From Isoetes taiwanensis (taxonomy: Eukaryota; Streptophyta; Lycopodiopsida; Isoetales; Isoetaceae): a stretch of DNA of 64,000 nucleotides. The stretch covers positions 6,106,488-6,170,487 of the forward strand of contig JAJEKV010000053.1 of NCBI GenBank assembly GCA_021234155.1. Direction: 5' to 3'. The notes below the pieces were generated by a model. The model was not told the DNA's origin and searched no databases. It saw only the letters and a list, made by a program, of their open reading frames with translations. The position numbers were made by a program, and so were the translations under genes. Every line of letters starts with the position of its first letter. Position 1 is the stretch's first letter. Below are positions 5,994 through 64,000 of the stretch, one piece after another.

Positions 5994-6553
5994 CTTTTTC
6001 CTCTTTCGGACTGGTTATCGGCGTCTTCTCACAGCAGCTCTTCTTCTATTCTCGTTGCTTCCCTCCCTTCCCGCCCTGCTGCGTGGGGGCATGAGTTTGC
6101 TTTTCTCTAACCATTCACGGGTGTTTTTTAGGGGTTCTTTGTGTTGCTTGCAGGCTTTCGCCATCTTCTGGGGTCCTGCTATATTTTGTGTTCGCCATAA
6201 ACCCATCTCCTTCGGTTTTCCAGGCAACACATTCAAGGTTGTTGGCGACCATTTCTCATTACGGTTTTCCTCGAAAACCCGAAAGGGCGGGGTTCTTTAT
6301 CCCGATGAGAAGTTGTCGCCATTACCCTTCTATATTGCCTGTGCACATTTCTTTTTACGGGGTAGTCCGATATTGTTCCTATGGTCGGCTACCCCTCTCT
6401 ATTCTTCAAAACATTGTATACTGCTGCTGTGATGAATGACAAGCCTATCCATCTTGCGAGTCCCTTCCCAGAATACTAACATCTATTGTGGTATATACCA
6501 TGGCCATGACACAAACATTCACGAAATATGTGACACTGAAGGTGCTAGTATAG

Positions 6554-6579
6554 GGGTGAAAGCATGTTGTAGTGGAACA
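6554..6579 (+). repeat. Left terminal inverted repeat of the 11.4-kb transposon
   Basis: 26 bp starting GGGTGAAAGC and ending AGTGGAACA, perfect inverse of 17903-17928. The adjacent subterminal DNA contains CACCACA and GTGTGGTGGGA motifs, also found near the right end (TGTGGTGGGAGA on the minus strand). Confidence 0.85.
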
Positions 6580-7780
6580 AAAACGTGCATTTTAGCACCA
6601 CATTTTTGGGTGCTAAGTGTGGTGGGAACTACCGAATTTGTAGTGGGAGAGGGAGTTATTTTTTCAAAAATACACATAATTACTTATTCAAAATTTTGTC
6701 CTTTCAGTCTTATTCGGGCTTATTCAAAGAACGCATTACACGATCATTTTCCCTCAAAAAAACTCGATCACGCCTCCCTTAATCCCGCAAGACCATTTTC
6801 GATTCTCGAATTTTCATTTTCCCTCAAAAACTCGATCACGCCCCTTAATCTGCCAAGACCATTTCTCGATTTTCGGCAAGAAGATCGATCACTTAAATGG
6901 CTCGATCATACCGGACTTGAATGCCACGGGATACACCTACAAGGAAATGTACAGCAAGAAAAGCATTACGCCACACAAGAAGAAATCGAGTCCGTTTGGG
7001 GACCGAAAGTATTAGGAAAATCCACTTACACGTGTGGGTTGCATTCTAGATTCGGGGGATGCCCATGATTCTTTGTTGTTTAGAATATTGTTTTGTTTCA
7101 TCATGCAAGGTTGAAGAATCGAAAGCAAGGAGAGGTATAATGAATATATGTGCCTTTACAAAAAAATCACAGGCGAGGAAGTGTGCCCGGGGAGGCATGG
7201 CCTCACAGACTATGGTCATGCGTATTACCTTCACACAAAAGGAAAAGAAATAAACGGTTGAGTTTCCGCAACAGTTAAGAGAAAAAAGGGTCTCAAGACT
7301 CTCCGTCCCAACGTAAGAGGAAGCATGCAAGCATTTCAAATAGTGTGGAAGCAGAAAGCAACCGCCACGAGATGATGCTTCCTCTCTTGAAATGACTAGG
7401 CCACAATTCAAGCCTCCCTCAAGTCAGAAGAATCTCGGGGAAAAATCCGAAAAAATAGGTACTTTTCAACCCTCTTCTTCCGGAACCACCATATGATGCA
7501 ATTTAATATTGAACCTGTTATTTTCCAAGAAGGTCTAGCAAGCTTGAACAATCGTGTACACCACTTACTTCTTCATTTGGGTGTGTTGTGAGTTATGTGT
7601 AGGAAATTTGTGCCGCTAGTTTCGAGTTGTGGTGGATAATTTCAGTTCTGATGAGTATGTAGCTCCAAATGTGTTCTGGGACGGTCATATGGTGCCAATT
7701 ATATGTTAATAATGTAGTTTATAGCATATGTAGTGTCACATATAGTACCAAACATGGTACCTTATCTGAATAGTGAATTG
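6580..7780. other. Left inner part of the transposon, no recognised gene
   Basis: Two direct copies of a TTTTCCCTCAAAAA..CTCGATCACGCC block occur at about 6748-6775 and 6818-6843. Open frames on both strands (longest about 120 codons on minus at 7046-7411) show no domain I know. Confidence 0.35.
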
Positions 7781-7789
7781 GCTTCCATA

Positions 7790-8275
7790 TGTTTCTATAC
7801 TTAGTGTCATATGTGATGTTAGATATGGTGATACTTGTGAATGGTGGATTGTCTGCCATATGTGGTGCCAACTGCTGCGCTAAATATTGCACCACGCTAT
7901 CTGCCACATATGGGGTGGTGGATGCCTGCCGGATGTGGTGCCTTCTTTGCATTGTGGTGCCACATGTGGTGTCTAATGTGGCACCACTATGGATCCACAT
8001 TTTGCACCACATGTGGTGTCTTTGACGCCATTTGTGGTGCGAAGTAATGGATTGCCATATGTGGTGCCTTGAGTGCATTGTGGTGCCATAGGTGGTGTGT
8101 CATGTGGCACGGTTTGGTGCCACATGCCACACCACATGTGGTGAATATGACGCCACCCTGGTGCCACATGCCACACCACATGTGGTGAATATGATGCCAT
8201 TTGTGGTGCAAAGTTTGTCATGATGGAATTTGTGGTGTGTAAAGTGGTGCCTGTTGTGTCATGTGGTACTAACCT
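7790..8275. repeat. Degenerate repeat rich in CACATGTGGTG / TGTGGTGCC motifs
   Basis: A run of near-repeats around GGTGCCACATGTGGTG, many of them self-complementary (CACCACATGTGGTG). The same motif recurs at 10395-10495, 10640-10730, 14085-14160 and, as CACCACACTAGGCACCACA, at 16255-16800. All these places lie inside the 11.4-kb transposon. Confidence 0.75.
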
Positions 8276-8329
8276 TGATTACTTTCCGGTTGAATTCAAC
8301 AGACACCGGGAGAATGGATCAACTCTACA

Positions 8330-9660
8330 AGATCGGTGATTAGGTGTAAGGCAAGATCGGAAGTGATTCAAGTGTAAGTCCGCTTTCACCTCTTGAGGTA
8401 CTTCATAACAAAATTCTCAAGTGCTTAGTATAATTGTATTCTCATTGACAAATTTTATTCTCTTTGCGGATTTGCAATCACCGTTTGCATTGAGAATTCT
8501 TTGTCATGAATTTTCTACAAAGATGTGAGTAGGGAGGATCAAAAGCAACTTCAAGCTACTGAGGCACTTACAGGTGAGCACTTATAGGTAGCTTAATTTA
8601 CATGCTAAGGGCCTGATGTAAGGGACAGATGCCAATTAGGATTAGTGGACTTCCTAATCTTTCACCCTGGCTTAGTCTCTTTCGTTTGTCCTGTTTGATG
8701 TGTCTAATTTGCCCCCTAGGATGAGGTCGCTCACTCATTTTAGGTGGCGAATTAGATACATCAAGCAGGAAACTCGAAAAGAGAGTAAGCCTGGCTTAGT
8801 CTCCTTCATTTTCTGTTTGAGGTATCTAATTTGCCCCCTAGGATGACATCGCTCACTTTCGGTGGCTTAATTAGATACATCAAGGTGAAACTCGAAAAGG
8901 GAGTAAGCCCGACATAAAACAAGATCCTGGCTGGCTTAGTCTCTTTTGCTTCTCCTGTTTTGTGTATCTAAAGTGCCCCCTGGGATTGCTGAATGCGGAT
9001 TGCTGAATGCAGTCACCAATACCATCTTCCATGTCTGCTCAGCCTCTTGAGGTACTTCATAACAAAATTCCTGAAGTGCTTAGTATAATTGTTTCCTCAT
9101 TGACAAATTTGCGTTCACTTTGCGGGATTTGTAATCATCTGTTGCATTGAGAATTCTTTGTCATGAATTTTCTACAAAGATGGGTACAAGCCTTAGGTGT
9201 GAGTAGGGAGGATCAAAAGCAACTTCAATCTACTGAGGCACTTACAGATGAGCACTTATAGGTAGCTTAGTTTACATGCTAAGGGCCTGATGTAAGGGAC
9301 AGATGCCAATTAGGATTAGTGGACTTCCTAATCTTTCACCCCACGGCTTAGTCTCTTTTCGTTTGTCCTGTTTGATGTGTCTAATTTGCCCCTAGGATGA
9401 GGTCGCTCACTCATTTTAGGTGGCTTAATTAGATACATCAAGTGAAACTCGGAAAAGAGAGTAAGCTCGGCTTAGTCTCCTTCGTTTTTCTTTTGCGGTA
9501 TCTAATTTGCCCCCTAGGATGACATCGCCACTCGGTGGCTTAATTAGATACATCATCAGGAAACTTCGAAAAAGGAGTAAGCCCGACATAAAACAAGATC
9601 CCTGGCTGGCTTAGTCTCTTTTGCTTCTCCCTGTTTTGTGTATCTAAAGTGCCAAGTCAA
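8330..9660. repeat. Tandem duplication of an about 660-bp module containing short hairpin units
   Basis: The block from about 8390 to 9010 (CTCTTGAGGTACTTCATAAC ... GGCTTAGTCTC ... AAAGTGCC) is repeated from about 9047 to 9655 with scattered small indels. Each module holds three sub-units, GGCTTAGTCTC...GTATCTAATTTGCCCCCTAGGATGA...GGTGGCTTAATTAGATACATCA...GAAACTCGAAAAG. TCTAATT and AATTAGA can pair in each. No ORF is maintained. Confidence 0.75.
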
Positions 9661-10390
9661 GTCAAGCTCGATGAGGTGCTCCAACCGGACAAACAATCGC
9701 CGTGATCGCCAGATGCATTAAGTCATGCTCCACACCAACTCGCCAAATCGCCAGATGCATCAGTTATGATCCGAACAAATCGTTTGGTGAATGTAAGTCA
9801 CAAGGTAACTTCCAACCTTTTGTGCCTCGTCTTCTTTTTAATTTGACCCATATAGTTACCGAATCAAGTTAGGAAGTGTCTCGAGAAAAAGCAAGAGCGT
9901 AATTCCAAGCAAAAGATACCTCCAAGACATTCGAAGCATATATGTGTCTTGCTATATGTGTCTTTGTAAAGCATGTTGTGGCTGCGATAATCTGAGACTT
10001 GGACATACTATCCCAATGCAAGGTGAGTTCAGTGAATTTGAAGGTATTACTCATCCAATGTGAGGCCTGATATGTTTGTTGCGAGGGTGTACCAATTTCT
10101 AGTTGCGGTTTGTTGGACACGAGAATGATGATTGATGTTGTGAAGCACGATTCTTTGTAGTAATGAAGTCGAGGTTGATGTGATCAATAGATCTTTACTT
10201 GTAATCACATGTTTGTATTATTGTAACCAAAGAGGTTATTCTTGTAACCTATTCTTTCATTGACACTCTAATGTACATTGTTGTATACTATTGTATACAA
10301 TAGACTTTTCTGGCTGACCAGAGCAACACTCTGGTGGAGTTCAAATCTCCAAAAGAAATTGATGTATTCAAAGATTCATGACAATGTGGT
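9660..10390. other. No recognised gene
   Basis: Spacer within the transposon, between the duplicated module and the TGTGGTG/19-bp repeat region. Short open frames only. Confidence 0.35.
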
Positions 10391-10394
10391 GTTA

Positions 10395-10870
10395 CATGTC
10401 GCGGATAGATGTGGTGATGCAAATGGTGCATGTGGTGAATCATGTGGTGCGTTTGGTGAACCATGTGGTGAATCATGTGGTGAATCATAGGTGGCATGCT
10501 GGAGCTTACGTTTCATGTTGGAGCCTAGGTGGCATGTTTGAGCCACCTTGGCATGTTTGAGCCTAGGTGGCATATTTGAGCCACCTTGGCATGCTTGAGC
10601 CTTTACATGACCTTTGTTACATGTTTGACTTCCATTGACCAACATGTTTGGTGATGCAAATGGTGCATGTGGTGGATCATGTGGTGCATTTGGTGAATCA
10701 TGTGGTGAATCATGTGGTGAATCATAGGTGGCATGTTGGGGCTTACGTGGCATGTTGGAGCCTAGGTAGCATGTTTGAGCCACCTTGGCATGTTGGAGCC
10801 TAGGTGGCATGCTTTTCGGTCTATGTGGCATGCTTGACCCTTCTTTGTGGCATGTTGGAGCCTAGGTGGC
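10395..10870 (+). repeat. Mixed array of TGTGGTGAATCA repeats and the 19-bp minisatellite
   Basis: TGTGGTGAATCA-type repeats at 10395-10495 and 10640-10730 alternate with 19-bp units (GGCATGTTGGAGCCTAGGT and GGCATGTTTGAGCCACCTT types) at 10500-10610 and 10730-10870. The two parts form a higher-order duplication: repeat pair, 19-mers, repeat pair, 19-mers. The 19-mer is the same as in the large array at 30251-31652. Confidence 0.8.
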
Positions 10871-11047
10871 ATGCATGCAAACGCCCCTTTCCTCTTCCTC
10901 GCCTCATTCCCAAAATCGTATGGATGCCTACGATTTGCATCCCTTTTATTCCCAAAATTCCGCCTGCAGCCTTCATTCCGCCCCCATCGTCTATTCCGCC
11001 ATCTCCTTCACTCCTTCCCCATTCAGTCCATCTCCTTCACTTCCGCC

Positions 11048-11347
11048 ATGGCCAAGTTCAAGACTACACTCGCTAGAACACTATCCCGGCCATTGTGCTG
11101 CTCGCGCAGCCAAAGACGGTTAGAACTGTGGCTTCCTGCGGGAGGATCCGCGGTCTTCTCTCCACTGCAGGAGGCCGCCTTTCTACAATGGTGGCCAAGT
11201 TCACTCCACCGCAGGTGGAGAAGCTCATCATGGATCATCAAGTTCGCCGCTTCATTGCGGGTGCTCGAGTGGGTGCATGCGGGTTATGATGACGAGGAGG
11301 AGACTCCCGAAATGAAGATGTATGCTGCGGGGGCGACCTCCATATAG
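11048..11347 (+). CDS. Possible small ORF, 99 aa, maybe a captured host gene fragment
   Basis: ATG at 11048 opens a 99-residue frame starting MAKFKTTLARTLSRPLCC, with an arginine/tryptophan-rich middle and an acidic end (DDEEETPEMK), stopping before an AT-rich 3'-UTR-like stretch with ATTAATGATG near 11455. The region is richer in C+G than the surrounding transposon and preceded by a C/T-rich leader, so it could be a piece of host gene carried inside the element. A parallel frame starting at about 11095 also looks protein-like, so the reading frame is uncertain. Family not recognised. Confidence 0.2.
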   Translation: MAKFKTTLARTLSRPLCCSRSQRRLELWLPAGGSAVFSPLQEAAFLQWWPSSLHRRWRSSSWIIKFAASLRVLEWVHAGYDDEEETPEMKMYAAGATSI

Positions 11348-11569
11348 AGCTCAAGATGGCCCCCTACCGATTAGTTTAGATTTGTATTGTAATCCCCGGT
11401 TTCAATTTTTTTTGGCAATAGTCCTTGTGACTATTCTTTGTAAAGGCTTTTCATTAATGATGTAACTTGTTTTGCAATAGTCCTTGTTTTGCAATAGAAC
11501 TTGTTTTGCTTTTAACTGTTCTCTCGAGTTTCCATCGTTTCTTTCAAGTTAGTGAACTTTTGTCATTAA

Positions 11570-12180
11570 TTATAAAATGCAAACAAGGAATTTGAAGGTG
11601 CGTAATCTATGATCCGCGCGACACTAACAAAATATGGTAAACCAACCAAAGAAATAGGAAAATATGAGATGGGTGGCTCGGGTTCAAAAGAAATAGAGTT
11701 CAAAAGAAACCGAAAAAGAAAAACATTGTAATTCCTCGGAAGCAAAAGTTAGTGGCCTTGCAAGAATCTTTGCACAAAGCGTAGATCAATGAATTTTGGC
11801 CTCATATCAATTGGGGACCTAATTTGGGATCCATATATTTGTCACCAAAATCGGTCAAGATACTATCGGGAATCTCGAGAGCCATTCCATTTTCCTCGAC
11901 CGGTCAAAAATGGTCAATGCCCCGGCTGATTATGGTGAAATCTGTGGTGAAAAGCGTGGTGAAAAATGTGGTGAAGCCGTGGTGATGCAAACGTTTTTAT
12001 ATTTCAAAGGGGAAAAATACATATGGAAATCTACCACACGGTAGAGAATAGTTCATACTTCTTATGAAATGAAGTATGCGAGAAAAATCGAGGGAAAACT
12101 ATAACCCCGAGCTTCTAGTATTATCAAAATGCATTAGAGATATAATAATAGCTGTTTTGAAGAGGTTAATGATGACATCT
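11570..12180. other. No recognised gene
   Basis: Spacer between the possible captured fragment and the minus-strand ORF group. Contains a few TGTGGTGAAA repeats at about 11940-11985. Confidence 0.35.
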
Positions 12181-12182
12181 GA

Positions 12183-13943
12183 TTATCGGGCCTCAATCAG
12201 ATCCTCGCATTGTGAGATCCGTAACTCTTCTTCTTCCAAGTATGTCCAAGATTTCATCAAGTTTTTCTCTTTGAATAGTTGGTGAAATCCAAAGAACACT
12301 AAAACATGAGCTTCTCGTTTACGCTCCCACTTATGATCTGATTCACAAAGTATTGTCTCGGGGTTGTTGTGTCTCCATGTACGGTGGCTTTGTTGAGCAC
12401 TTTTTAATGGTGAAGCATGGATCATTTCCTGCTTTAGTTCGATGAACATATCCTCTTCCTCAAGCATGGGGAGAGCTGCGAACTCATCCTCAGAATCATA
12501 CGCCACCCCGAACCCCGCATTTTGCACCAGCTTAAGTTAAGTCTCGATTTGCATCGTGTAAAACATCATTAGTAATAAGAAAGGCAACCGCCTATCACTG
12601 CCTTGGCTTCTAATTCTTTAAGCCCATCAGGAATTAACCTATGTTTTAAGCCTAGAATACCTCGGAATTCATGGGTCCTCCGCTCCTCTAATATCCGCCT
12701 CTGTTCCTGGTTTATTTGCTCCAGTATAGGTCTTACCAGATGCGACTGCATTTGAACTGGCGAAATTGTTTGTGCCCGTGTTCTCCTTCTGTTTTCTTCC
12801 GCCATTTGGATCGGGATAAGCCAATGTCTGCATGCAAAACTAGATTTAGGGTTTCCCTCCAATCTTTCCTGCACAGCCAGCTTTTGAATGATTGAACTTG
12901 CATTTGATGTGACAGATTTCCAGTGGTGGGTTTCATCATGTGTTTCTCTGTCCCATTCCGTTCATCCTTAATGTAATTTTTCTGTGTGTCACTTTCACCC
13001 CGCTAATTAATTAAGAAAGATTGAAGAGTGAAGATTTATATTAAACATATAAAATGATTACATAAGGTTACATTTCAGATTATATACACTTGTTTTCATT
13101 CCCTGTGGGTCTATCAAAAGAGAGGGTCCAGCTCCTCCTCGTCATCTTCTATGATCACCGGTCGGTGGCCACGGGGTCAGCTTCCCACCCTATTTGCTCC
13201 CATTCGGAGGGAAAGCAAAAACCATAATGGTGGAGTGTTACCAAACGTAATAGTAGCTTCTCCATGTCCATCCCGCAAGGCCTTGTGATGATAGTACATA
13301 TCCCCCAAGTGAAGGAATTGGTCCTCTGTAAACAACCTATCATAACAAAAGAGGAACCTTTTTTAGCGTAAAGGCTTGGTAGCCATTAAGCGTAAAAGGT
13401 CTCAACCTTTTGCGGATCCTGGTCAATAGTATGAGGAACGGGCCAAAGATCTTTGTGGTGTGTAAAATTTCGGTGGAGGCAGAGTAAGTTGAGAGGTCCG
13501 GGAGTGTGGTGTACAATTCAACCTCCCCGGTGAGAGTTTTCAGCATTTCTCGTGGTCATATTCTCATCCCGGTGAATAGAGTAATTTCTCAGATCCCGAA
13601 AGCATGTCCATCCATTTCGCATGGCTGAAAATCGGACAAAGACGCCTAGGTATTATGGGCTCTTCTTCTCTCGGGTCACATTGTCCCATTCCCAAGACTC
13701 CATCGCTTTGCAAAGATCCAAGAGGTGAAGTTGGCCATGTCCGTAGTAGTCAGCCGAAGTCGTAAACCGTAAACCGCTTCCCACCCACCAGAAAACAGTA
13801 AACCGCTTCCCAAGGACCTCGCCGCCAGAAACTGCCTCATCCCCGAACCGCTGTAATAAATCAGTAAACTTCGGTCGGGAGCAAGAAGAATGGCATCTCG
13901 GGCCTTTTGGGTTGCCCGAGGTCATTAATTTTCGCCATCCCAT
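12183..13943 (-). pseudogene. Unrecognised multi-segment gene of the transposon
   Basis: Several minus-strand open segments with protein-like composition lie in order: 13943-13653 (contains RPKFTDLLQRFG and a W-rich end WESWEWDNV-like), 13546-13340, 13343-13155, 12939-12569 (a charged, coiled-coil-like stretch AEENRRRTRAQTISPV ... EQINQEQRRILEERRTH) and 12527-12183 (acidic start DSEDEFAALPMLEEEDMF, then SWTYLEEEELRISQCED). They change frame repeatedly, so the gene is either intron-rich or broken. I do not recognise it. Its place downstream of the transposase-like gene on the same strand suggests a second element-encoded protein, perhaps a DNA-binding accessory protein; that is inference. Confidence 0.3.
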
Positions 13944-14084
13944 AATGATTTCGGCACGGCGGTCACCAAAGGATGATGAGAGGAATTGATGGGACCCAGA
14001 GAATTTAAGGAAAAGGAAAGTATTTCAAGAGAAAAGTCGTTCGAAGGATCTATCGTGTTCGGAGAGAAGAGATGAAAGTGAAAC

Positions 14085-14160
14085 ACGTGGTGAAACATGT
14101 AGTGAAACACATGTGTCACCACATGTGGTGAAACACATGTGGTGAAACATGTGGTGAACC
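14085..14160. repeat. Cluster of CACCACATGTGGTG palindromes
   Basis: Within about 75 bp the sequence has four overlapping GTGAAACA(C)ATGTGGTG units, including the perfect palindrome CACCACATGTGGTG. It lies between the two minus-strand gene groups of the transposon. Confidence 0.75.
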
Positions 14161-14321
14161 AGGGCATGTTACATCGGGGACATCAAAATACAATTACATA
14201 TTACATGGGGCAAACATATTGCATTGAAACAAGGGACATCAAAATACAATTGAACATGGAATTGAGTTTCTTATATTATTCCCAAACAAGGCAAGACACA
14301 ACAACATATTCAAAATTTCAA

Positions 14322-16012
14322 TCATTTCCTAACTGTAAGAATGTGTTCGCTATTATTCTTCATCGGACATGCTATCTTCATCGGATAAAACCCGGGCAAG
14401 TTTTCTAGAATCTTTTCCTCATCCGCCTGGTCTAGCATGTAAACATTTCGAAGCACCTTTCTTGATCTCGGCCGCATGGGAACTCGAATAGCACAAATTT
14501 GAGTAGAGAATACAAGTGACTTTGGCTCGTTTGTCAACAACTCATACATCACCTTTGACCGAGGCTTCTTTCTATAGTAAATGCCCTCCACAACGGTTTC
14601 ACCTCTCATAAACAAGTTTCCGTTCTGCTTGAAGTCATTTTCAACTTCAAATTTTGGCTTGGTGCATAGCAACATCCAAAATACGTAATCCTCCTCGTTC
14701 CCTTTAGGTGCAAAGAACCGCAAAAGTCGTCTCCTTCTCTAAGTGCTTACGCAAGTACATTTGCCAAGGTTGAGTATAGTGGCTGGTAGACTTGCGGGTC
14801 TCTTCCACATCCGCATGAACATTGGAGGATGGTTCAACGACTACAAAGGTCCCATTCATCTACATACAGATTCGTTCTCACACATGTCCCATTTTCCATC
14901 CAAACAATTCTTTGCAAAACATGATAGCTTTCTGGTATGTAGTCGTGTTGGATTTCGCGTCTTGAATCCATGGTGAATGAATTTGCCTGATTCTCGAATT
15001 GTCTCGCACCCCAAGCCTTTTTTCTGTTGATATCCTCGGGTTTTATTTCCCAGAAGTATCTCGAACTTTTCTTCCATTTTCGGTCCACTTTCGGATGTAC
15101 CACATTGAAATTGTTTCTCGCAATTTTCACCACATCATGGGCATTATCTAGTTTAATGTCGGGATGTTTAAGTCATGAGACCTCGTATCCATCTTTTCAA
15201 TTCTGCCGCCTTCCCATCATGTTCACCTTTTCCATGGTTTGATCCAAAGAAGTTCCACATCATGTTGACCTCGTCAGATCACAACTGTACCTTCCAACAA
15301 AATAAAATGATTCGGTCGCTTTGAATTGTGATGCAAAGACCATCCGAAAAAATACATAGTTTGTTTGGGGACATTGCCTTTCGCTTTAAGTACTCAAAAT
15401 GTTTCATAAAACAATGTTGAACAAAAGTGTGTCATGTTCCCTATCATCCAGGACACATAGTAGTGTGTTTCCTTCTCAATGGTGTTCGTGGATCAACCTC
15501 GATAGGTTATTTGAACAAATATAGTTATCTCGGTTGTTGACCCAAATAAGCATGGACTGAACTTCATTACGCTCCTTAAAAGTATAATTCTCTGAAGTCA
15601 ACCACGGATAGGTAAGCATCTCCGTGCAAGTTATCAAGGAGTTCTTTGTCTTGTTCACCGCCACTTATATCTGAAGTTGTGTAAAAGGAAAATTTGGAAG
15701 CTTCTCCAACATTTTGTTCACCGGTGGAAGACTTGCGGTTTCATTGTGTTGGTGAACGAGCTTAGACTTCTTCTTCGCCATCTCACGAATACATTTTTTT
15801 TCATAATCTAGGTATTCCCACTTCACCATGCCACTATCACTAGATTGTTCATGTGGGCGGATAGGGAACTTCTTAATCCCACACTCTTTACACTCACCCG
15901 TAATGCATTCCCTCTTATGGTAAGGTTGGAAGCTAGTTTTCTCATAAAATTCCACGCCACACAGACTTCTTGTGCTACTTATTTTGTATTCAGGGGCAGC
16001 CGCATTCACCAT
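14322..16012 (-). pseudogene. Transposase-like gene, middle and C-terminal exons
   Basis: Read on the minus strand: 16012-15665 has a Cys-rich segment (CITGECKECGIKKFPI, then VKWEYLDYEKK and LEKLPNFPF); 15664-15476 has SENYTFKERNEVQSM; 15133-14834 has YFWEIKPEDINRKKAW...RQFE...HDYIPESY; 14723-14322 has NEEDYVFWMLLCTKP...NGNLFMRGETVVEGIYY. From memory, a widespread uncharacterised eukaryotic protein family (common in cnidarian, arthropod and some plant genomes, probably transposon-derived) has the same order: zinc-binding Cys cluster, a (D/S)(F)SENYT..QNEVQS motif, then a C-terminal ..IPGT..H.FIP-like domain. The segments are split by stops and frame changes; catalytic acidic residues cannot be confirmed. 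Confidence 0.45.
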
Positions 16013-16089
16013 ATATGTCCGACCGCCAAAGTCGACAAGTCTTTTTGCAGACTTTTGGGTGCTTAGTTCTCATACTATTGAATCCATCT

Positions 16090-16254
16090 ATTAGCATCTG
16101 CATTCTAACATGGTTTTAATTTTACAACAAACCATGGTTTCAGCTTTTCAAACATCCTCTGTTTGATCATAACACTAGGATGTTCCGCCTTGAATTTCCG
16201 AACAATTGCAACTTGCAAAGGAAGATAACAAGGTGATCAAAGATATTTATTGCA
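16090..16254. other. Likely intron of the transposase-like gene, no feature
   Basis: Short AT-rich gap between the Cys-rich segment and the CACCACA array. Confidence 0.3.
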
Positions 16255-16805
16255 CACTACATTTTCCACCACACTAGGCACCACATAGCATATATTACAG
16301 ACATTCATCTTACACCTCCTTATTCACCACACTAGACACCACAACGCATATATTACATAATTTATTGTACACCATATTTTTCACCACACTAGGCACCACA
16401 TAGCATATATTACGTGCATTCATCTTACACCTCGTTATTCACCACACTAGGCACCACATAGAATATATACAAAGATTCATTTTATACCATATTTTTCACC
16501 ACACTAGGCACCACACTAGGCACCACACTAATCGGGCACCACACTAGACACCACACTAGGCACCACACCATGTTATTCACCACACTAGGGACCACATAGC
16601 ATATATTACAAAGATTTATTTTACACCATGTTATTCACCACACTAGGCACCACATAGCATATATTACAAAGATGTATTTTACACCATGTTATTCACCACA
16701 CTAGGCACCACAAAGCATATATTGACAAAGATTTATTTCACACCACGTGCCTCACCACAGCAACCACATATCACAAGCAATCACTAACCACATACCACAT
16801 ACCAC
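16255..16805 (-). repeat. Tandem array of about 60-bp units with CACCACACTAGGCACCACA
   Basis: About eight units of the form CACCACACTAGGCACCACA-TAGCATATATTACA-AAGATTTATTTTACACC-ATGTTATT, with an internal burst of short CACCACACTAGG repeats at about 16495-16570. It sits in an apparent intron: on the minus strand, an ATCACAG|GTTATT donor-like site at about 16853 precedes it. Confidence 0.85.
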
Positions 16806-16893
16806 ATACCACATTAACAATAAAAAATGTGGTGAAGATGAAGAAATGAAATAACCTGTGATTCTTCCAGATAGTGAGTGGCACGATCCTCTC

Positions 16894-17653
16894 TTACATT
16901 TCGTTCCAATCTTCTAAACTTAACATCCTTTGCATTTGAGAGACCCTACTTGTTTTTGGGTCCAAAATTGTCGCACAAGTTCTATAATGAGAATTGGGAA
17001 TTGCATCTGCTCTTCTAACTCTTTTGTACAAAACCCATTTCCCCCCTTTGCAATCTATCTCTTCCCTCTTCAATTTTGCTTTGGTAAGATTCCTAGGATG
17101 AACACCCAGCAGTTTACCAAAACCCCGAGCACTGACAGGATTAGCACTTTCGGTATTAATGCTTCCTCTTACGGCCATAGCAAGGCAACTACTCTTGGCT
17201 GCTAAAACTGTCATTATTTTGTTAGACTTCTTCACAAGTTGAATGGAACCCCCGAGGTTCTTGACCACAATGCTCTTGGCTTGCAAATCTTTCAGACTCT
17301 TCGAAATCACGGCTGTCCATTGTGTCATCCTGCAGATAATCTAGTAAAACCTCTTTCTTATCGCTGTTAGACAAGCCTTTAGTGGTGCTATGAAATGAAG
17401 ATAACAATTTTAATACCATCCGACGCCTAGTAGAGGCCGTTCTGGTGGATCCTCCCTCTGCTGATGCAATTTTTGCTAATTCTTCTTTAGCTTCCCTTTG
17501 TCTTTTCCTTTGGCGTCTTTTATGATCCCGTTCTTGTTCTGGAGTTCTCTTTCTCTTACCTGTGCTCCGGTTTGAGATTTTAGGCAGATTTGCTTCCAAA
17601 TTAAATGATTGAAGGTATGAACCGGATTGATCCACAACCGGATTAAGCGCCAT
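16894..17653 (-). pseudogene. Transposase-like gene, N-terminal exons
   Basis: The first in-frame ATG is at 17653 (MALNPVVDQSG). Residues about 40-75 form a strongly basic helix (GKRKRTPEQERDHKRRQRKR) typical of nuclear localisation or DNA binding. The frame runs to 17222, but protein-like sequence continues in another frame from about 17328 to 16894 (TQWTAVISKSLKDLQAKSIV ... HPRNLTKAKLKREEIDCKGGKWVLYKRVRRAD), so a frameshift or short intron lies near 17320. It is followed after the CACCACA array by the exons at 14322-16012. Being first on the same strand, it is probably the 5' half of the same transposase-like gene. Confidence 0.4.
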
Positions 17654-17902
17654 AGCCGTGTGCTTCAAGAAAGGCGCGGGTGGGTCGTGGGTTTAGAAAT
17701 CGGTTCGGTGGAGATTGGAATGGGACGGGTGGCGTAGGAAATTGGAATGGGACGGGTGGCGTAGGAATTGGGTTGTTGCAGTTCAAGAAATGATTGAATC
17801 CGGGCAGTACATGCACTAGGCGCCAAACAAACATTTAAAATCGCACCACAAATTTGATATCTCCCACCACATTTTTAGGGGGGACAGGGGGGACACCCAG
17901 GG

Positions 17903-17928
17903 TGTTCCACTACAACATGCTTTCACCC
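17903..17928 (-). repeat. Right terminal inverted repeat of the 11.4-kb transposon
   Basis: 26 bp, perfect reverse complement of 6554-6579, followed by the ATAG target duplication at 17929-17932. Inside it is a G-run-rich stretch (17876-17895) and a CCCACCACA motif. Confidence 0.85.
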
Positions 17929-17932
17929 ATAG

Positions 17933-18150
17933 TTGAAGCTAATAACAATACCTATAATGTCACTAGTGGGTAGTGACACTAATGGTGATGTTATATGTGT
18001 AACAACTACTGACGCTATATTTGATGCTAATAACAATACCTATAATGTCACTAATGGGCGCTGACACTAATACTGATGCTATACGTGTAACAACTGGTGG
18101 CGCTGTAACTGGTGCTAACAACAACATCTATAGCGTCATAGCAAAGTTAC
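17933..18150 (+). repeat. 87-bp tandem repeat, about 2.5 copies
   Basis: The unit GAAGCTAATAACAATACC..TATAATGTCACTAGTGGG..GACACTAATGGTGATG..GTGTAACAACT..GACGCTATA repeats with a period of 87 bp (17933, 18020, 18107). Similar but weaker sequence lies left of the transposon (6480-6553), as expected if the element inserted into such a repeat. Confidence 0.75.
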
Positions 18151-23416: not shown

Positions 23417-25972
23417 TCAAATAAATTTCCGGATGATAATTTGGATTTGGTTATATACCCCTTTCTGGGCAACCATAACTGATGAGTAATAAATATGAGA
23501 GGCAGCAAGAACAGCATTTTCCACAGTCACACATCCAGCTGTAGAAAGGGACTTTGTGGACCACAGACCAACCTTCTTTCTTAACTTATCAAGTATAGGG
23601 GCCCAGAGTCCTTTAAGACTATCTGACAGCATCAAGGGAAGTCCAAGAAGTTTAACTGATTCCCTGGCAGTGACTACTGGGAAACCCAAGCCCCTGGCTC
23701 GAGGATCAATGTCGCTTTCTGTAGGCCATAGAACAGAACATTTATTGGCATTGAGACCAATACCAGAAATAACCTCAAAGGACAGCAGGATCTCTCGGAA
23801 TGAGAGAAAGCTATTGTCATCATATCTGAGAAACATAAAAGTGTCGTCAGCATACTGCATTATCATCAGCTTATCCCCACCTTCTGGGAAGGTTAGACCT
23901 TCTAAGTTTCCCTCTGACGCTTTAAGGTGGACCATTATTGTTAAAAGATTTGCCATGATGAGAAACAGATAGGGAGCAAGGGGGCAGCCTTGCCTAATAC
24001 CTTTCTTGAGATTAAATAGACCAGAGGGTTGCCCATTAACCAGCACCGAGGCTGAGGCCAAGCTGTTCATTCCTAGAGTTAGTCGGATGAATTGAGCGTC
24101 AAATCCCATGCTACACATAACTGCACGTAATCCTGCCCATCTTAGGGAATCATACGCCTTTCTAAAATCCATCTTAATCAATACACACTTTTGTTTTGAG
24201 GTCTGACACCAGTGCAGCCCTTCCCTGGCTGCAAGATAGTTATCCAGGATATATCTGCCAGGCAAGAAGGCTGATTGCTCCATCCCGATGACCCTATTGA
24301 GTATAGGTTTCAAGCGATTGGCAATAATCTTCATAATCACTTTGTAGATGGCATTGGTAAGAGCAATAGGCCTCCACTCACTTAAGCTTAGAGACCTGGG
24401 AACCTTGGGGATGAGCGTGATAAAACCTGCTGCAAGAGTAGGGTGTAGAGAGCATGAGGCCCATGCACCACAAACAGCTCTAGTAAAATCGTCCCCAAGA
24501 ACATCCCAAAATTCGACGAATAATTCAGGGGGGAAACCATCTGGACCAGGAGATTTTCCGGCAGCAAGAGAGCATAGAGTCTTATAGATCTCATCCTTTT
24601 CTACACTATGAAGTAAGTGCCTATTTTCAGCAGCACTAACCCTCTCCCCCCAATCAACATTGGCCAGCCAGGTGTTTAGTCGAAGATGGAAGGAGGAGGG
24701 TAAGGGATCTTCCGCAAATTGTTTTTCAAAACTTCCTCGTATGAAGGACCTGATATCCTGTGGGTCTTCCAGTGTATTGAGGTTATCATCCTTCACCGTT
24801 AGAATACTATTTTCTGCTAACCTAGCCCCAGCCAGCCTAAAGAAGCATTTAGAATTTTCATGGTCTAGCTCAGCATACCATTTGGTTTTGGAGCGAACAG
24901 CCGCTCCTCTGGCCTCCTCCTCTTCTATTGCCTTGGCTTTCCCTTCTAGCACCTTCTCTGTATTTTGTTTTACCATGTTGTGCGGGTCCAATAGCAGTTC
25001 CTGTTTGACCTCTCTCAGAAGGTTATAGACTTCTTCTTTTTCCTTTTTAAACTCCATAGCTCTGTTCCTGCCCCACCCTTTTACCCACCACTTTATGAGA
25101 CCAATCTTTTTAACCCAACCCCTCATACTGTATGGGTTATCAACAGCAACTAGTGAGGAAACAAAGACCCTAAAGGGCTTGCAGAAAGCCTCCTTCCCCA
25201 GCCAAGATGCATTAAACTTGAAGGGAGTGTTTCCATTCATCCTAGTAGTAGGAATGTTTTCCAAGATTAAACTTTGGGGGACATGATCAGAGTGAGAAAA
25301 CGCCCACTCACCCTCAACATAGCACCTATCCATGAAACCAGCCGACTTGTTAGCCATATAGAACCTGTCCAGCAAGCAATAAACTCTATCCTGGCCCTTT
25401 TGCTTATTTGACCAGGAAAAGGTGGCATTGGAAGGCGGGACCAAGGCAAATCCAACATTATCAAGTAATGAATTCCAGGTGGAGTCCTCCTCAGTTGATA
25501 GGTTTCTATGTAGACCTATTTTCTGGTCCCATGTGTCAGTCATATTGAAGTCTCCCCCTAAGATCCAATATTCTGTAATGTTGACCTGGAGAGTGATCCA
25601 GGACTCAATCTCCTTCCACATGGCTACCCTTTCCCCCGGCTTATTAGATGCATAGACATTGATGATTCCCCAATGACAATTATTTGTTTCAAAGGTAACC
25701 ACCTGCCATCGCCCATCCCCTGCAGAATGGTAAGATTTTTGCACTAGACCTTTCCAGAGTATACATGTACCCCCTTTAGTCCCACTGGTTGCACAACTGA
25801 GGGAGGAATAATTGTTGCCAACCAAATTGCCTAGGGAGCTTGCCTGGAGGTCAGGGAGCCTATGTTCCTGAATCATAATAACATCTGCCTTCATGGAACG
25901 AATTGCGGCAAGTACTCTGCCACGTTTGAGAACACCTTTTATACCCCTAAGGTTCCAAGAAACAATCTTCAT
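23417..25972 (-). pseudogene. LINE ORF2: APE endonuclease and reverse transcriptase
   Basis: The start is placed at ATG 25972 (MKIVSWNLRGIKG), the usual start of plant LINE endonucleases; the frame is open 187 codons further upstream, but that part is linker. The APE domain spans about residues 1-225 with SWNLRG, IQEHRL, GDFNM and SDHVP, all catalytic positions intact. RT follows at about residues 430-750: LIPKV..WRPIALTN, GPDGF, the motif A MDFRKAYDS, GIRQGCPLAPYLF and YADD (23843-23854). The frame ends at TGA 23417-23419, where the family has Trp (FIWGG), so a single TGG to TGA change interrupts an otherwise open 851-codon frame. It nicks target DNA and copies element RNA by target-primed reverse transcription. 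Confidence 0.92.
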
Positions 25973-27436
25973 ATTGTTTATACAGTGGTCTGACAGTATG
26001 ATGCTCCTTTTACAGGATCCAGGTGAGATAGGGAGCTTTATCGATAGAAGCCAACTTAGATCACAAGTTCCAAGGTAAATATAGCGTGTCATGCTGTTAT
26101 CCCCTGACCGCCATTTCTTCCCCAATTTATTATAGAGATATGTCAAAGGAGGACCCACCCCAAAAGTACCTCCTAATTTTCCAAATGGTAAGCCAATTGC
26201 AAGGGTTACCTCAAATAGCAAAGGGACAATTATAACCTTTTTGAGACCCCCCTTCCCACCCGGGATCACCCCAAGGGCCTTAGTCAACCAAGACCCCCTT
26301 AGACATAATGTCCCTATTGAGACATCTCGTGAAAGGAAAAACCAAATAAGCAAGGGGGTGCACCAACCTTGGCATAATAACTTGGCAAGCAAGGGGAAGC
26401 TTAAATTCTTTTTGAACCCCTTTACCCCAACTAGGGTAACCTCATGCCTCCAATAATTGCCCCCCCTCCGTTTCATTTCCAGACTGTTTGGGGAGAATGT
26501 GAAAGGAAGAGGAGGCCTCTCACCCCCATACAATAGGAAAAATCACCAATTTGCCCTAAAATATCCATTGGTTGTTGAAATAAGTATCTCTACTCTCCTT
26601 TTGAAACCCACCGTCCCGCCAAAAGTCACCCAATGCCAAGGGACCCTATTCCACCCAAGCCCCCATTTTCTCACCACCACCCAAAAAAGCAATGGGTCAC
26701 AAAAGTCACCAAACTCTAAGTTTGGACATAGTAACCATAACATAGATAACCTTATCATATCATTTTGACATAAACCAATTGGAATGTCCATCGGATAAGC
26801 ATTCTTGTCCTCACGCCTGCTGGCCCGTTCCCAAAACCGGCCCTGAACAACCCACTGCAATCCTTGAACAACCACCCTATTCGAGCCTCTGATGGCCTCT
26901 AAATAGACAGAGCAATAGTAATGGGATAATAAGATAGACCAAATGATCCTTTCAGAACTGTATCGGTTGGTTATAGACCATTGTTGAAAGATGAGGAAGA
27001 TGTTTTTACTCTTAAATTCCCTTCTTAAAGTAGTGCAAGTTCTTTTGTATATCGACAAAAAAGTAGTAGATAAGAACATGAAGAAAGTATCCATTAATAT
27101 ATGCCTATTATCACCTTAACAGATTTAAAACATATCCAAACCAGCCCCAACAGAAGAGTGACCAGCTTTGGTAGCAAAAAGGACTTCACCCCATTCATGT
27201 AAGAAGGAATAACTTCACCACAAAACCAGATCTGCTTGTGAACTTGAAGGTTCCAGCCATTGAGAGGGAGATTTTCGAGATCCAAAAACAGAGCACCTTA
27301 TACTAAATAACTGCTGATAAAGGGAGATACTAACCTGAGCACTAAATATCTCCACTAAACTGATAACCAGCATCAGATGAACATGCCAGCAACTACCCGC
27401 CATCTCACTTCTTCTTAGCTGTATCATTAGAGTGAT
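25973..27436 (-). other. LINE linker between ORF1 and ORF2
   Basis: Open in several frames but without known domains. Phrases such as VTFGGTVGFKRR, VTLVGVKGFKKN and GGKGGLKKVI recur at intervals (about 26590, 26430 and 26240), suggesting diverged internal repeats with CCTTTTTGA/GGGTTTCAAAA blocks. The long frame that runs into ORF2 from here looks fortuitous. Confidence 0.4.
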
Positions 27437-30240: not shown

Positions 30241-30250
30241 TCATATTAAC

Positions 30251-31652
30251 TCAAACATGCCACGCGGGCTCCAACATGCCAACTAGGCTCAAATATGCCA
30301 AGGTGGCTCAAGCACGCCACCTAGGCTCCAACATGCCAATGTGGCTGAAACATGCCACCTAGGCTCCAACGTGCCACCTAGGCTCCAACATGCCAAGGTG
30401 GCTCAAGCACGCCACCTAGTTTCCAACATGCCAAGATGGCTCAAACACTCCACCTAGGCTCCAACATGCCACCTAGGCTCCAACACTCCACCATGGCATG
30501 TTGGAGCCTAGGTGGCAAGTTGGAGCCCATGTGGCATGTTTGAGCCTAGGTGGCATGTTGGAGCCCGCATGGCATGTTTGAGCCACCTTGGCATGTTTGA
30601 GACTAGGTGGCATGTTGGAGCCCACGTGACATGTTAAAGCCATCTTGGGTGGCATGTTTGAGCCGCCTTGGCATGTTTGAGCCTAGGTGGCATGTTGGAG
30701 CCCGCATGGCATGTTTGGGCCACCTTGGCATGTTAGGTGGCATGTTGGAGCCTAGGTGGCATGTTGGAGCCTAGGTGGCAAGTTGGAGCCCAGGCATGTT
30801 TGAGCCTAGGTGGCATGTTGGAGCCTACATGGCGTGTTTGAGCCTAGGTGGCATGTTGGAGCCTAGGTGACATGTTGGAAATTTTGCATGGCATGTTTGA
30901 GCCACCTTGGCATGTTTGAGGCTAGGTGGCATGTTGGAGCCCATGTGGCATGTTTAAGCCACCTTGAGTGGCATGTTTGAGCCACCTTGGCATGTTTGAG
31001 CCTAGGTGACATGTTGGAGCCTAGGTGGCATGTTTGAGCCACCTTCGCATGTTTGAGCCTAGGTGGCATGTTGGAGACCGCATGGCATGTTTGGGCCACC
31101 TTGACATGTTAGGTGGCATGTTGGAGCCTAGGTGGCAAGCTGGAGTCCACGTGGCATGTTTGAGCCTAGGTGGCATGTTGAAGCCTAGGTGGCATCTTGG
31201 AGCCTAGGTGGCTTGTTGGAGCCCGAGTGGCATGTTTGAGCCACCTTGGCATGTTTGAGGCTAGGTGGCATGTTGGAGCCTACATGGCATGTTTGAGCCA
31301 GCTTGGCATGTTGGAGACCATGTGGCATGCTTGAGCAACCTTGGCATGTTTGAGCCTAGGTGGCATGTTGCAGCCTAGGTGGCATGTTTGAGCCAGCTTG
31401 GCATGTTGCAGTCTAGTGGCATGTTTGTGCCCATGTGGCATGTTGGAGCCCGCGTGGCATATTTGAGCCACCGTGCCATGTTGGAGTCTAGGTGGCATGT
31501 TGGAAACCACGTGGCATGTTTGAGTCTAGGTGGCATGTTGGAGCAAGTTGGTATGTTGGAGTCTAGGTGGCATGTTTGAGTCACCTTGGCATGTTGGAGT
31601 CTAGGTGGCATGTTTGAGCCACCTTGGCATGTTGGAGCCTAGGTGGCATGTG
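30251..31652. repeat. Minisatellite of 19-bp units, about 70 copies, with orientation switch
   Basis: Two main variants alternate: GGCATGTTGGAGCCTAGGT and GGCATGTTTGAGCCACCTT, both 19 bp. From 30251 to about 30490 units are in reverse orientation; from about 30495 to 31652 in forward orientation. The two sides meet at CCACCATGG, so the left 240 bp can fold onto the adjacent right part. Since 3 x 19 = 57 bp, all three frames repeat every 19 codons, which creates many open frames on both strands (periodic HAKVAQTCHLGSNMPPRLK) without meaning a gene. Confidence 0.92.
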
Positions 31653-53669: not shown

Positions 53670-55232
53670 CTATGTTTTGTGGGCAATATAATCCCTGATT
53701 TTCTGTCTGGCAATTCTGTACAAAACAATGGCACCCAAAGCAGCCACTATTGATCCAACTACAATGGTTGCTGTGTATTTTTTGGCCATGGATTTGGATG
53801 ATTTGGAATGAGCAGCAGGGGGGCTTGATTCTGCTGGAGGAGGAGGAGCAGACGGATTTGATTCTGGTGCTGGATTTGATGGAGTGGTCGGAACGGATGG
53901 AGTGCTTGGAATTGACGGACTTGGAGTATATGGAGTTGATCCAGATGAAGAACTCTGTACTCTGACATACGCAATGTGATCCAGATTGCTTGTTTCCTTC
54001 AGAAAAAATGCCATCTCTGCATCAACATGTAGACACGATTCTGCTTCTCTCCAGTAAAATGCCACTGCACAGTTGCAATCTTGTAAGCAAGCATCCTGGC
54101 ATTCATCTTCTGTGTGAATCCTTGACGCAGGCCTGTGCGAGTTTTTCATCGGATACTCGGAAAAATAATCTATGCCTGGAAATGCTTTCATCTCATAAAC
54201 TGATGCTTCATATTCAAGTGTACAGGACAGCGGATTTGCACATTGATCTTGAAATGCATACAGATCTCTGTCTTTTGCTATGCATCCATTACATTTCCCG
54301 TCAGAGCATATTGTACAATGATCAGGCAAAGAGCAAGAATCATTTATGACATCAAATCTCGTCCAATTCCCCTGATTCAAAGAATATGCATGAAGATTAC
54401 CTGTTTCTGCATCAATCTGCAATAATGCTCTGCCGGAAGAAGAACTGACAGATCCCAGAGACAAACTTTTTGAAGGAATCATGCTGCAAACATCAAGAAA
54501 CAGAGTATAAAAAGGGGCGGAATCGCCGGAAAACCTAAGAACTAACTGCTTAGACTTAGGATCAAGCATTGCGTAGACAGTAGTATTACAGGCATGGCCA
54601 AGAATAGAAAGATTATCGACGCCGTCGTAAAAGCTGTGGATCCAATAGGGCTGCGAATCTTGATCTATGGAATAATAAAGAACCAGGCCGCTGGCTTCAA
54701 CATATAACCTGTACATTCCGACCCTGTTTGATGCAGCTTTTACCAGCTGCTTATCGTACTTTAACACCTGCCCTTCCACCAGAGTATCTGTGGGATGATC
54801 AAAGCTTTGCCAAGCTATACCCCCTCCATCGCCGGATTTAAGCACCAGGTTTCCAGTCTCAAGCAGCTCTAAGCCTGTAACCCCGCTGTTTGCTGTGCCG
54901 GAGCTCCAGAGCAAGCTTCCGTCCTTGCCTTGAAGCAGCAAATTTCCGTCGGAGTTAAAAACCAGCGATGGCTTCTGAAATACAGGCCTTTCCAGAACTG
55001 CTTGCCAAATAATTTTATGGGCACTTCTAGCCATAGATTTCCAGTTGAGGGCGATTCCGAAGATGAAGCCATCGCCGGAGGTTGAATTTACAAGGATGAG
55101 TGCAAAATCCGGAGTTGTGAGGGATTGAAAAATGCCATTGTTTTGGGTTTGTAGATACAGAGGAGAAGTGGGGAGAGGGTGGGCGATGGCTGGAATTACG
55201 AAGAAAAGGGCCACAAGAAAGGGCGCTGCCAT
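53670..55232 (-). CDS. S-domain bulb-lectin receptor-like protein lacking a kinase domain
   Basis: Intact 520-aa single-exon gene; ATG at 55232, stop at 53670. Signal peptide about 1-17 (MAAPFLVALFFVIPAIA), bulb-type lectin domain about 35-150 ending WQSFDHPTDT (141-150), S-locus-glycoprotein-like region about 155-300, a Cys-rich stretch 300-337, PAN/apple-like domain about 337-425 (Cys 378, 382, 386, 388, 400), a Ser/Pro-rich extracellular stalk 427-475, transmembrane helix about 487-505 and a 15-residue basic tail. G-type lectin receptor kinases have the same ectodomain order followed by a cytosolic Ser/Thr kinase; here the protein simply ends, so it may act as a co-receptor or decoy at the plasma membrane, binding cell-wall or microbial carbohydrates (inference). 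Low-complexity stalk and TM are in frame with no break, so this is not an obvious truncation. Confidence 0.92.
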   Translation of the reverse strand: MAAPFLVALFFVIPAIAHPLPTSPLYLQTQNNGIFQSLTTPDFALILVNSTSGDGFIFGIALNWKSMARSAHKIIWQAVLERPVFQKPSLVFNSDGNLLLQGKDGSLLWSSGTANSGVTGLELLETGNLVLKSGDGGGIAWQSFDHPTDTLVEGQVLKYDKQLVKAASNRVGMYRLYVEASGLVLYYSIDQDSQPYWIHSFYDGVDNLSILGHACNTTVYAMLDPKSKQLVLRFSGDSAPFYTLFLDVCSMIPSKSLSLGSVSSSSGRALLQIDAETGNLHAYSLNQGNWTRFDVINDSCSLPDHCTICSDGKCNGCIAKDRDLYAFQDQCANPLSCTLEYEASVYEMKAFPGIDYFSEYPMKNSHRPASRIHTEDECQDACLQDCNCAVAFYWREAESCLHVDAEMAFFLKETSNLDHIAYVRVQSSSSGSTPYTPSPSIPSTPSVPTTPSNPAPESNPSAPPPPAESSPPAAHSKSSKSMAKKYTATIVVGSIVAALGAIVLYRIARQKIRDYIAHKT

Positions 55233-55319
55233 AGCCGAGCTCGGCAGAACAGGGGACCGGAATAAAGTGCGAACGAGGTCAGTGCAGGAAGGTGGATATC
55301 GGGTTTGGATATCAGGCAG

Positions 55320-55990
55320 ACCTCAACTTAACGGTCCAGATTCGAGCTCGGGCAGACAATCCTGGCCGTTGAAAGGCTTACATATTTATGCACATATATT
55401 TATGGTGGCGTTTGTTTAAAATATATACACCCCGGCCTTTTTTGTTTTGTTTGGGTTTGGAACTTAATTTGGTGTACAAGCTGCAGATACCATGTTATGT
55501 TTTGCTAGACTGCCAACAAATGTTCCAATTATATCTTCACATCTTCGGGCGCTTTTCCAAGGTCTAGATTCGAGCTCAGATAGACAATCGAGGCCGTTGA
55601 AAAACTTATGGGGGCTTTTGTTTAAAATACCTCCATGTAAAATAAGATCCTCTACAGCATAGAACATCATGTATGGCGGCATGGAATGTGGGAAACATTC
55701 CAGGGGCCCCGCGACCCACTTCCAGGCCGCCACAATATGGCAACTGGGAGTTTTGCTTGATTCTTACCTGCAGGTGACCGCTTGAGTGGAATTGCTGTGC
55801 CGCTTTCCATTCTGGAGGTGGAATCGCCAACCCAGTTGCCATGTTGTTTTATTATACCTTTTTTGTCTCGCATATTGGATTTGAAACTTAATATGGTATA
55901 CAAGCTTGCAGATACCATGTTACCCTGCCCAATTATATCCTCACATCTCCCATGTTGGTCTGCAAACAATGGTCCAATTGCATATTGTGA
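55320..55990. repeat. Local duplications upstream of the lectin gene
   Basis: GATTCGAGCTC..CAGACAATC..GGCCGTTGAAA..TTTGTTTAAAATA occurs at 55335-55425 and again at 55565-55632. GAACTTAAT.TGGT.TACAAGCT.GCAGATACCATGTTA occurs at 55460-55500 and 55880-55925. So the upstream region was copied in pieces. Confidence 0.75.
55385..55430 (-). promoter_or_regulatory. Possible TATA region of the lectin gene
   Basis: On minus, TATATATTTTAAAC (about 55416-55429) and CATAAATATG (about 55383-55392) lie 150-200 bp before the ATG at 55232. Either could act as a TATA box; no other core element is evident. Confidence 0.3.
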
Positions 55991-62752: not shown

Positions 62753-62754
62753 GG

Positions 62755-64000
62755 TAAGAACAGGCCAAAAATCTTACAATTGGGATCCATCACTGTTATA
62801 TATCTGATGATGTGTGGGAAATTTGAATTCAAATCTTAGAGCTCAAAACATATTCAAAAATTCAAATTCTTGTGTGTGGGAAATGAAATTCAAATTTAGA
62901 GATCGATCCTCAAACTAGAACCGGAGGGCAAATCTGACTTACCTAAAGAATGATACCTGGAGAGAAATAAGTGCATTCCTTGGATCACGAACATTTGTAT
63001 CTTGGTAGCAATAAATTCGAAGGCAAAGGGGAGCCTGAATCTGCAACACGAATGCACAATCTAAGCACACAAGCTCGAAGGGTTTCGGTCTTCGTGAGAA
63101 TTTTTGGAAGGATTTTGCTAAGGATTTTATGTGGCAACGTGGCAAAAAGATATTGGACATATAGATATCTCCAAATTCGAATTTATTTTGGTTGCCCCTC
63201 GAAACACCAACTAAAAAATAAGTAATATGAGGTAAAAATAAAAGAAAAAAGGGCTTATGGGGACATCACGAGACCCCACTTTTTTTCTAATGTTTAAAAG
63301 TAGAAAACCATTTTTTTCTTATTTGCTTATGTGGCCCAATAGAAATGACTAAAATATAAGACACCACTCTAGTGGAAAATCATCCTCAAGCTCTTCTACG
63401 TATTAAAAGGGCAGTGGAAATGCATATACCATGCCTGAACAAAAGCCACTTATCAACTAAAATCCGTCATTCAAAATAGAGGCCATCATGCGGTTGTCAT
63501 TCCCTACTGCAATAGCCATAATGCAGTGCCCCAATTTAGGCTGGAGTTTAGAAGCCAACCCCTCAGAGCTGAACCATGGCCACTCCCTCAGAGTTGAAAT
63601 GATAAATTGTGGCATTTCCTTTTCATAATAACTTTGAGACCTAATTGCAGAACCGAGAAGAGCTTCTAGACTGAAAATGTTTGTGCATAGCCAGCTATGG
63701 CGACCTTCCCATTTGTGCGATTTTGGAGACAGTAGGGTTAGTCGAGACTTACAACAAAATCGATCCGTCGGATCAGCTCGTCCAATCTCGGCCGTCCGAT
63801 TTAGGTCTCCATTGAAGACACACACGCCATATTTTTATAATAGAGGACTAGAAAAAGTGCCCAGTGTTGTTGGGCTTTTCATCGGGCATAAGTTAACAAG
63901 GTGCTGCGCACGGAGGGTTGCCCTTCGGTGGCCCGAGAGTGTGTTTTCATGTTTCTGGGATGTGGACCTACATTCTTGTGTATAAACCCTAAGGAGCTCT
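62755..64000. other. No recognised gene
   Basis: Upstream DNA of the transposase-like gene. A direct repeat AAATTCAAAT(C)TTAGAG occurs at 62820 and 62889. At 63345-63400 GACTAAAATATAAGACACCACTC..GTGGAAAA resembles the MITE interior at 49455-49475 in reverse. Minus 63825-63457 is open (122 codons) without a known domain. Confidence 0.35.

Follow-up and report, generated by a model that had tools for sequence, protein, structure and literature searches.

What kind of mobile element lies in a 64,000-nucleotide stretch of the Isoetes taiwanensis genome (contig JAJEKV010000053.1, forward strand positions 6,106,488 to 6,170,487, called the window below), and to which group of transposons does it belong? 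The element occupies window positions 6554–17928 (11.4 kb) and is a genuine DNA transposon of a large family. This family is very probably of the cut-and-paste type, encoding its own transposase and bearing additional cargo genes in its fuller members. The original prediction, which had proposed a DNA transposon outside the common plant superfamilies, is supported in its overall interpretation.

Termini and target site duplications

Inverted-repeat and genome searches place the 26-bp terminal inverted repeats (TIRs) of the window element at 6554–6579 (plus strand) and 17903–17928 (minus strand); they are perfect inverted copies of the sequence GGGTGAAAGCATGTTGTAGTGGAACA. ATAG is found immediately outside both, at 6550–6553 and 17929–17932, and is identified as the target site duplication (TSD) by direct reading and by comparison with 20 elements (below), so both the predicted perfect TIRs and the ATAG duplication are borne out. 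The first 22 TIR bases (≤3 mismatches) have two matches in the window versus none in 100 shuffles. The flanks had also been predicted to join into one repeat, and this part did not stand. An 88-bp tandem repeat (17929–18138) directly adjoins the right TIR, and the insertion apparently took place at the edge of this repeat or just within it; the best match of the left flank to the repeat, however, scores 21, whereas 200 shuffles reached up to 29.

In the whole host assembly (1,658,258,908 bases in 1110 contigs) the 26-bp TIR, with up to three mismatches, has 426 forward and 412 reverse matches, or 838 ends, and the reversed control has none. Nineteen head-to-head pairs 9–18 kb apart, taken from about 100 listed exact ends of the 838, were studied together with the window element; eight wider pairs (~22–61 kb) were excluded. 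These 20 elements span 9.06–17.64 kb and all terminate at the same base pair, having been selected by exact TIR. A perfect 4-bp TSD is present in 19 of them, the exception being C674 (TTTG/CTTG), so the duplication recurs at other insertions; shuffled pairing of the flanks gave at most six matches in 10,000 trials, and 5-bp and 3-bp readings match in 0/20. The 19 TSD strings all differ, with two pairs mutually reverse-complementary (GTTG/CAAC and AGTG/CACT), and they show a weak preference for A/T at position 2 (17/19) and position 3 (15/19). It might be argued that such a structure is a misassembly or a chance inverted repeat, for which only the noise in the assembly speaks; the 838 ends with an empty control and the TSDs in 19/20 elements refute this, and we regard it as extremely improbable. 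TTAA, the target duplication of Sola3, Kolobok and piggyBac elements, is found in none of the 20. The 4-bp length, seen in 19/20, also agrees with the predicted contrast to hAT (8 bp), CACTA (2–3 bp), PIF/Harbinger (3 bp), Tc1/mariner (TA) and Mutator-like elements (MULEs; 7–12 bp, PMC10741241), lengths other than 3–5 bp being judged by eye from 14-bp flanks.

The transposase gene and two related subfamilies

The minus strand of the window element carries a two-exon gene. Its N-terminal exon (16856–17653, ATG at 17653) contains a basic region, is putatively DNA-binding, and is matched in 20/20 elements by tblastn. A predicted intron (16212–16855), GT..AG by inspection, contains a tandem CACCACA array with 57–58-bp units. 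The catalytic exon (14353–16211), which has several frame shifts as assembled, is found by tblastn in 10/20 elements, in one of these (C67b) by way of its nested relative (below). The two exons together would encode about 885 amino acids, an estimate that ignores the frameshifts. Three codons picked out by eye as candidates for the catalytic Asp residues lie at 15599–15597, 15344–15342 and 15218–15216, and three of the six invariant Asp residues of the transposase family take RNase H-like positions in a low-confidence structure model. The product is probably a DDD transposase, with a catalytic exon predicted to be RNase H-like. The original prediction had allowed that these minus-strand frames might match an ordinary host gene; they belong instead to a family that is carried by transposons and for which an RNase H-like core is predicted.

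None of the transposase pieces tested reached the cut-off of a Pfam or NCBIfam family (best E 0.0079, NID, and 0.0037, RadB, 17.2 of 172.4 bits, respectively). Among the exons tested, Pfam showed no hAT, MULE, CACTA, PIF/Harbinger, Tc1/mariner or piggyBac transposase domain at E values up to 1, although a missing match is weak evidence. A sequence search of the PDB gave a best E of 0.0017, to an axonemal protein, and 1.7 with a profile, and Foldseek on the first transposase model returned low TM-scores, with unrelated proteins among the matches.

A search of prokaryote genomes gave six matches, five by chance and one real. The real one, L052 (JAAEPJ010000558.1), is a 690-amino-acid protein encoded in a 4-kb contig filed under a bacterial genome; the transposase looks eukaryotic, and the contig is likely misbinned. 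It is homologous over the catalytic region, with the motifs DF(A/S)EN..NE.QS, SDG.(A/S)SQFK and HGKG..DG..KR. Its gene is flanked on both sides by repeated GTGTTGGACGTAC-like motifs. A 12-bp inverted pair in the contig, GGGCAATTCCAT, was considered as the element ends and rejected, having no matching 4-bp flanks and occurring at about the (estimated) chance expectation. No relatives were found in phages, and none in viral contigs apart from one chance match with an in-frame stop.

Two further subfamilies are present in the same genome. The mutual homology of the genomic relatives L053/L056 and L055/L057 breaks off at the end GGGTAAAAGCAC, and the sister element on the L053/L056 side is complete (12,096 bp, C1066:2378258–2390353): its other end matches the first, and TAAT flanks it at either side. 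Its 21-bp end (≤2 mismatches) has 369 + 372 matches in the genome and none in the control. An element of a third subfamily (7,648 bp) is nested within C67b, a member of the main family; its ends, GGGTGTAAAATCGC and GGGTGCAAAATCGG, are identical at 19/25 positions and its TSD is ATGT. An alternative reading one base earlier gives TGGGTG ends with TG; the ATGT reading is preferred because the other subfamilies have GGGT ends, which are then common to all three. The unoccupied site is also present: C118, C67a and C501 run through it, and a single ATGT is read in C501. Conversely, C67a has inserted into a copy of the third element, and its flanks, once joined, match L044 through the junction (79% over 605 columns), an alignment compatible with either one or two TSD copies. 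The main, sister and nested elements all encode one transposase family, which thereby gains defined ends and target duplications and is hence assignable.

By the mechanism that we propose, the transposase would excise the element after binding its GGGTG ends and would insert it into a target, where a staggered cut would leave the 4-bp duplication, with its weak A/T preference in the two middle bases. About half of the examined elements lack their own catalytic exon, so that their movement would have to be in trans.

One possibility is that the family represents a separate superfamily, so far undescribed and present in plants and beyond, that is marked by GGGTG ends and a 4-bp TSD. The lack of Pfam and NCBIfam matches above cut-off is in its favor, and the homologue L052 points to a wider distribution; Pfam, on the other hand, does not list every transposase. 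Academ elements have a 3–4-bp TSD, which the 4 bp here fit, and a transposase of their own. Also against a separate superfamily, the HGKG..DG family occurs in many animal proteins and so may well be named in Repbase already. On balance we consider a new superfamily possible but somewhat doubtful.

Cargo genes, motif arrays and apparent frameshifts

The sister element has plus-strand open reading frames (ORFs) encoding an NLI/FCP1 phosphatase-like protein (the NIF-like gene; PF03031, E 3.6e-15), an Ulp1-type protein (PF02902, E 1.2e-4), a coiled-coil protein whose end looks zinc-finger-like by eye and which has no Pfam family above cut-off, and ORF3, a separate ORF with a below-cut-off match to the Mos1 helix-turn-helix domain PF17906 (E 0.016, 15.8 of 24.1 bits). 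In the main family, the NIF-like gene is matched in 17/20 elements (all but the window element, C357 and C33), ORF3 in 17/20 and the zinc-finger ORF in 12/20. The sister Ulp1 ORF and another sister ORF, L058:9209–9856 (sequence trimmed), when used as queries, matched 0/20. An Ulp1-like ORF of C501 is matched in all 20 elements; it has no Pfam match and is linked to the sister Ulp1 ORF by one weak BLASTP pair only (23% over 90 columns, E 4e-7 for a single comparison). ORF2 is matched in 20/20 elements by tblastn, and the sister ORF2 is unbroken and 54% identical to that of the window. The latter lies downstream of the transposase gene, and the sister ORF2 is on the opposite strand inside transposase intron 1, so that the cargo has been rearranged between the subfamilies. 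Fuller members carry NIF/FCP1-type, Ulp1-like, zinc-finger/coiled-coil and ORF3 genes on the strand opposite the transposase, with ORF2 on either strand. Such additional genes may aid the spread of the elements. In the nested third element the NIF traces are weak (E 2e-4).

The transposase gene and ORF2 (12189–12617, minus strand) remain in the window copy, whereas the phosphatase gene is gone and little of the Ulp1-like ORF is left. Relative to C306, about 2 kb with the NIF-like gene are absent at 9653–9951, and the adjoining Ulp1-like remnant of the C501 ORF (9951–10031, plus strand) is 27 amino acids long and 81% identical. Also on the plus strand are an ORF3 fragment (7124–7255), 43% identical to the sister ORF, and a short ORF (11048–11344) present in only 3/20 elements.

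The many internal arrays noted in the original prediction are real: TGTGGTG or its complement CACCACA occurs 60 times in the 11.4-kb element (first-order Markov mean 2.1, maximum 8 in 200 simulations) versus 10 times in the remaining 52.6 kb of the window. By motif count one plus-strand cluster, with some CACCACA, lies at 7861–8237, and a second, at 10385–10719, adjoins arrays of the 19-bp unit GGCATGTTGGAGCCTAG. The arrays are mostly outside exons. Motif counts range from 45 to 60 across the 20 elements; 91 were counted in the sister, some of them within GT-rich simple repeats, and only one in the nested third element. By analogy, the arrays may bind the transposase, as CACTA subterminal repeats do, or, as in VANDAL elements (PMC13317346), a protein encoded by the cargo. 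Elsewhere in the window the 19-bp unit TGGCATGTTGGAGCCTAGG is repeated over 1.4 kb (30250–31651), in an array ~70% like the in-element one at 10488–10873; within 2 kb of it the TIR has only chance-level (10-mismatch) matches.

Might the NIF-like, Ulp1-like and ORF2 genes, together with these arrays, form an anti-silencing system like that of Arabidopsis VANDAL VANC and KIU? VANC acts via short motifs located in non-coding DNA, and Ulp1 is part of some VANC genes (PMC13317346). The dense, mostly non-exonic arrays are in keeping with such a system, as are the presence of ORF2 in 20/20 and of NIF in 17/20 elements, including those without the catalytic exon, and the at least 150 genome-wide NIF matches, 29 of the 150 scored being without a stop by manual count. 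Several points weigh against it. The likeness to VANC is one of analogy; the motifs could simply bind transposase, as the subterminal repeats of CACTA do; the nested subfamily has a single motif; and most NIF matches, counted genome-wide whether in elements or not, contain at least one stop. We think an anti-silencing system unlikely. The phosphatase motif reads FYYNGV in the main-family copies with a readable frame (C499, C790 and C306) and LDFNGV in the sister, so the nucleophile Asp, Tyr in these three copies, seems lost. It is a tentative and still rather improbable extension that the lineage is new at the superfamily or deep subfamily level, with conserved NIF/FCP1, a degenerate Ulp1, ORF2 and TGTGGTG motifs as a module for self-recognition and transcription despite silencing; in this reading the phosphatase-like protein of the main family would act as a binding protein rather than an enzyme. 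Through its conserved phosphatase-like and Ulp1-like cargo, the family allows the idea of transposon-borne anti-silencing to be tested outside MULEs.

The frameshifts in the window copy are themselves suspect. In one MAFFT alignment of eight ~10-kb elements (C64, C67a, C118, C499, C501, C554, C674 and C790), departures from the majority letter reach 17.3% near CG and 16.0% near CHG versus 4.3% elsewhere, about 4-fold denser within a few bases of these sites. Deamination was rejected as their source because transversions exceed C>T/G>A changes near both CG (3.9% vs 3.2%) and CHG (3.9% vs 2.2%), although all transitions pooled still somewhat exceed transversions there. Deletions are raised 1.5- to 1.8-fold near these sites, and transversions and deletions together make up 60% (CG) and 56% (CHG) of departures. 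Such a pattern is consistent with nanopore reads being miscalled at methylated cytosines, and the assembly (1658.30 Mb, 204 scaffolds and 909 contigs) was made from nanopore R9.4.1 reads with racon and pilon (PMC8566536). In plant assemblies built from nanopore reads, genes of transposons may thus look dead though they are not.

The window also contains an unbroken 550-amino-acid frame at 53670–55322, by eye a lectin-type host gene. On the minus strand of the window are an uninterrupted 1041-amino-acid frame that looks by eye like the endonuclease/reverse transcriptase of a long interspersed nuclear element (23417–26542) and three adjoining long frames (60179–62773) whose protein is unknown and which perhaps derive from a further mobile element.

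Comparison with known transposons

Open-licence papers yielded no report of elements like these in Isoetes and none of NIF as cargo; the term "DNA transposon" is absent from the main text of the Isoetes genome paper (PMC8566536), and the words "phosphatase" and "NIF" from that of a VANDAL/KIU review (PMC13317346). In this plant group we found no multi-gene cut-and-paste lineage with 4-bp TSDs described; the family adds one, and two of its subfamilies have hundreds of ends each.

We give a little better than an even chance to the family being a lineage of the Sola superfamily, probably Sola2, that is loaded with cargo genes. Sola elements have 4-bp TSDs, a DDD transposase, TIRs of 11–1124 bp and sizes of 2–9 kb, some exceeding 15 kb (PMC10741241), and dictyostelid Sola2 elements have 12–21-bp TIRs, AT-rich 4-bp TSDs and an 888-amino-acid transposase (PMC3627910). 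Sola has been noted in moss, is said to seem uncommon in flowering plants (PMC10741241), and is listed for Capsicum (PMC9033089). Here, 4-bp TSDs, A/T-rich in the middle, are found in 19/20 main-family elements and also flank the sister (TAAT) and the nested relative (ATGT, with an unoccupied site); the short TIRs, the size range and the estimated ~885 amino acids of the transposase are likewise Sola-like, Sola2 in particular, as a DDD transposase would be. On the other side, the combination of DDD and 4-bp TSD alone is not unique to Sola, and the 20 elements (9–17.6 kb) are longer than most Sola elements and carry conserved phosphatase-like and Ulp1-like cargo. By analogy the family most likely works as a Sola element does, and Sola is its best parallel.

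Other systems share single features. The L052 protein has a homologous catalytic region, but is only 26–30% identical to L053 and has no proven ends or TSD in its contig. Large size, subterminal repeated motifs and internally deleted derivatives are shared with CACTA (En/Spm) elements, which differ in TSD length (2–3 bp, not 4), in their CACTA rather than GGGTG ends, and in a transposase domain that Pfam does not find here. VANDAL and KIU (Kaonashi) Mutator-like elements, likewise DNA elements of plants, also carry additional genes, cargo of the Ulp1 type and short non-coding motifs, but KIU are described as non-TIR MULEs (PMC13317346), whereas the elements here have TIRs and 4-bp TSDs.

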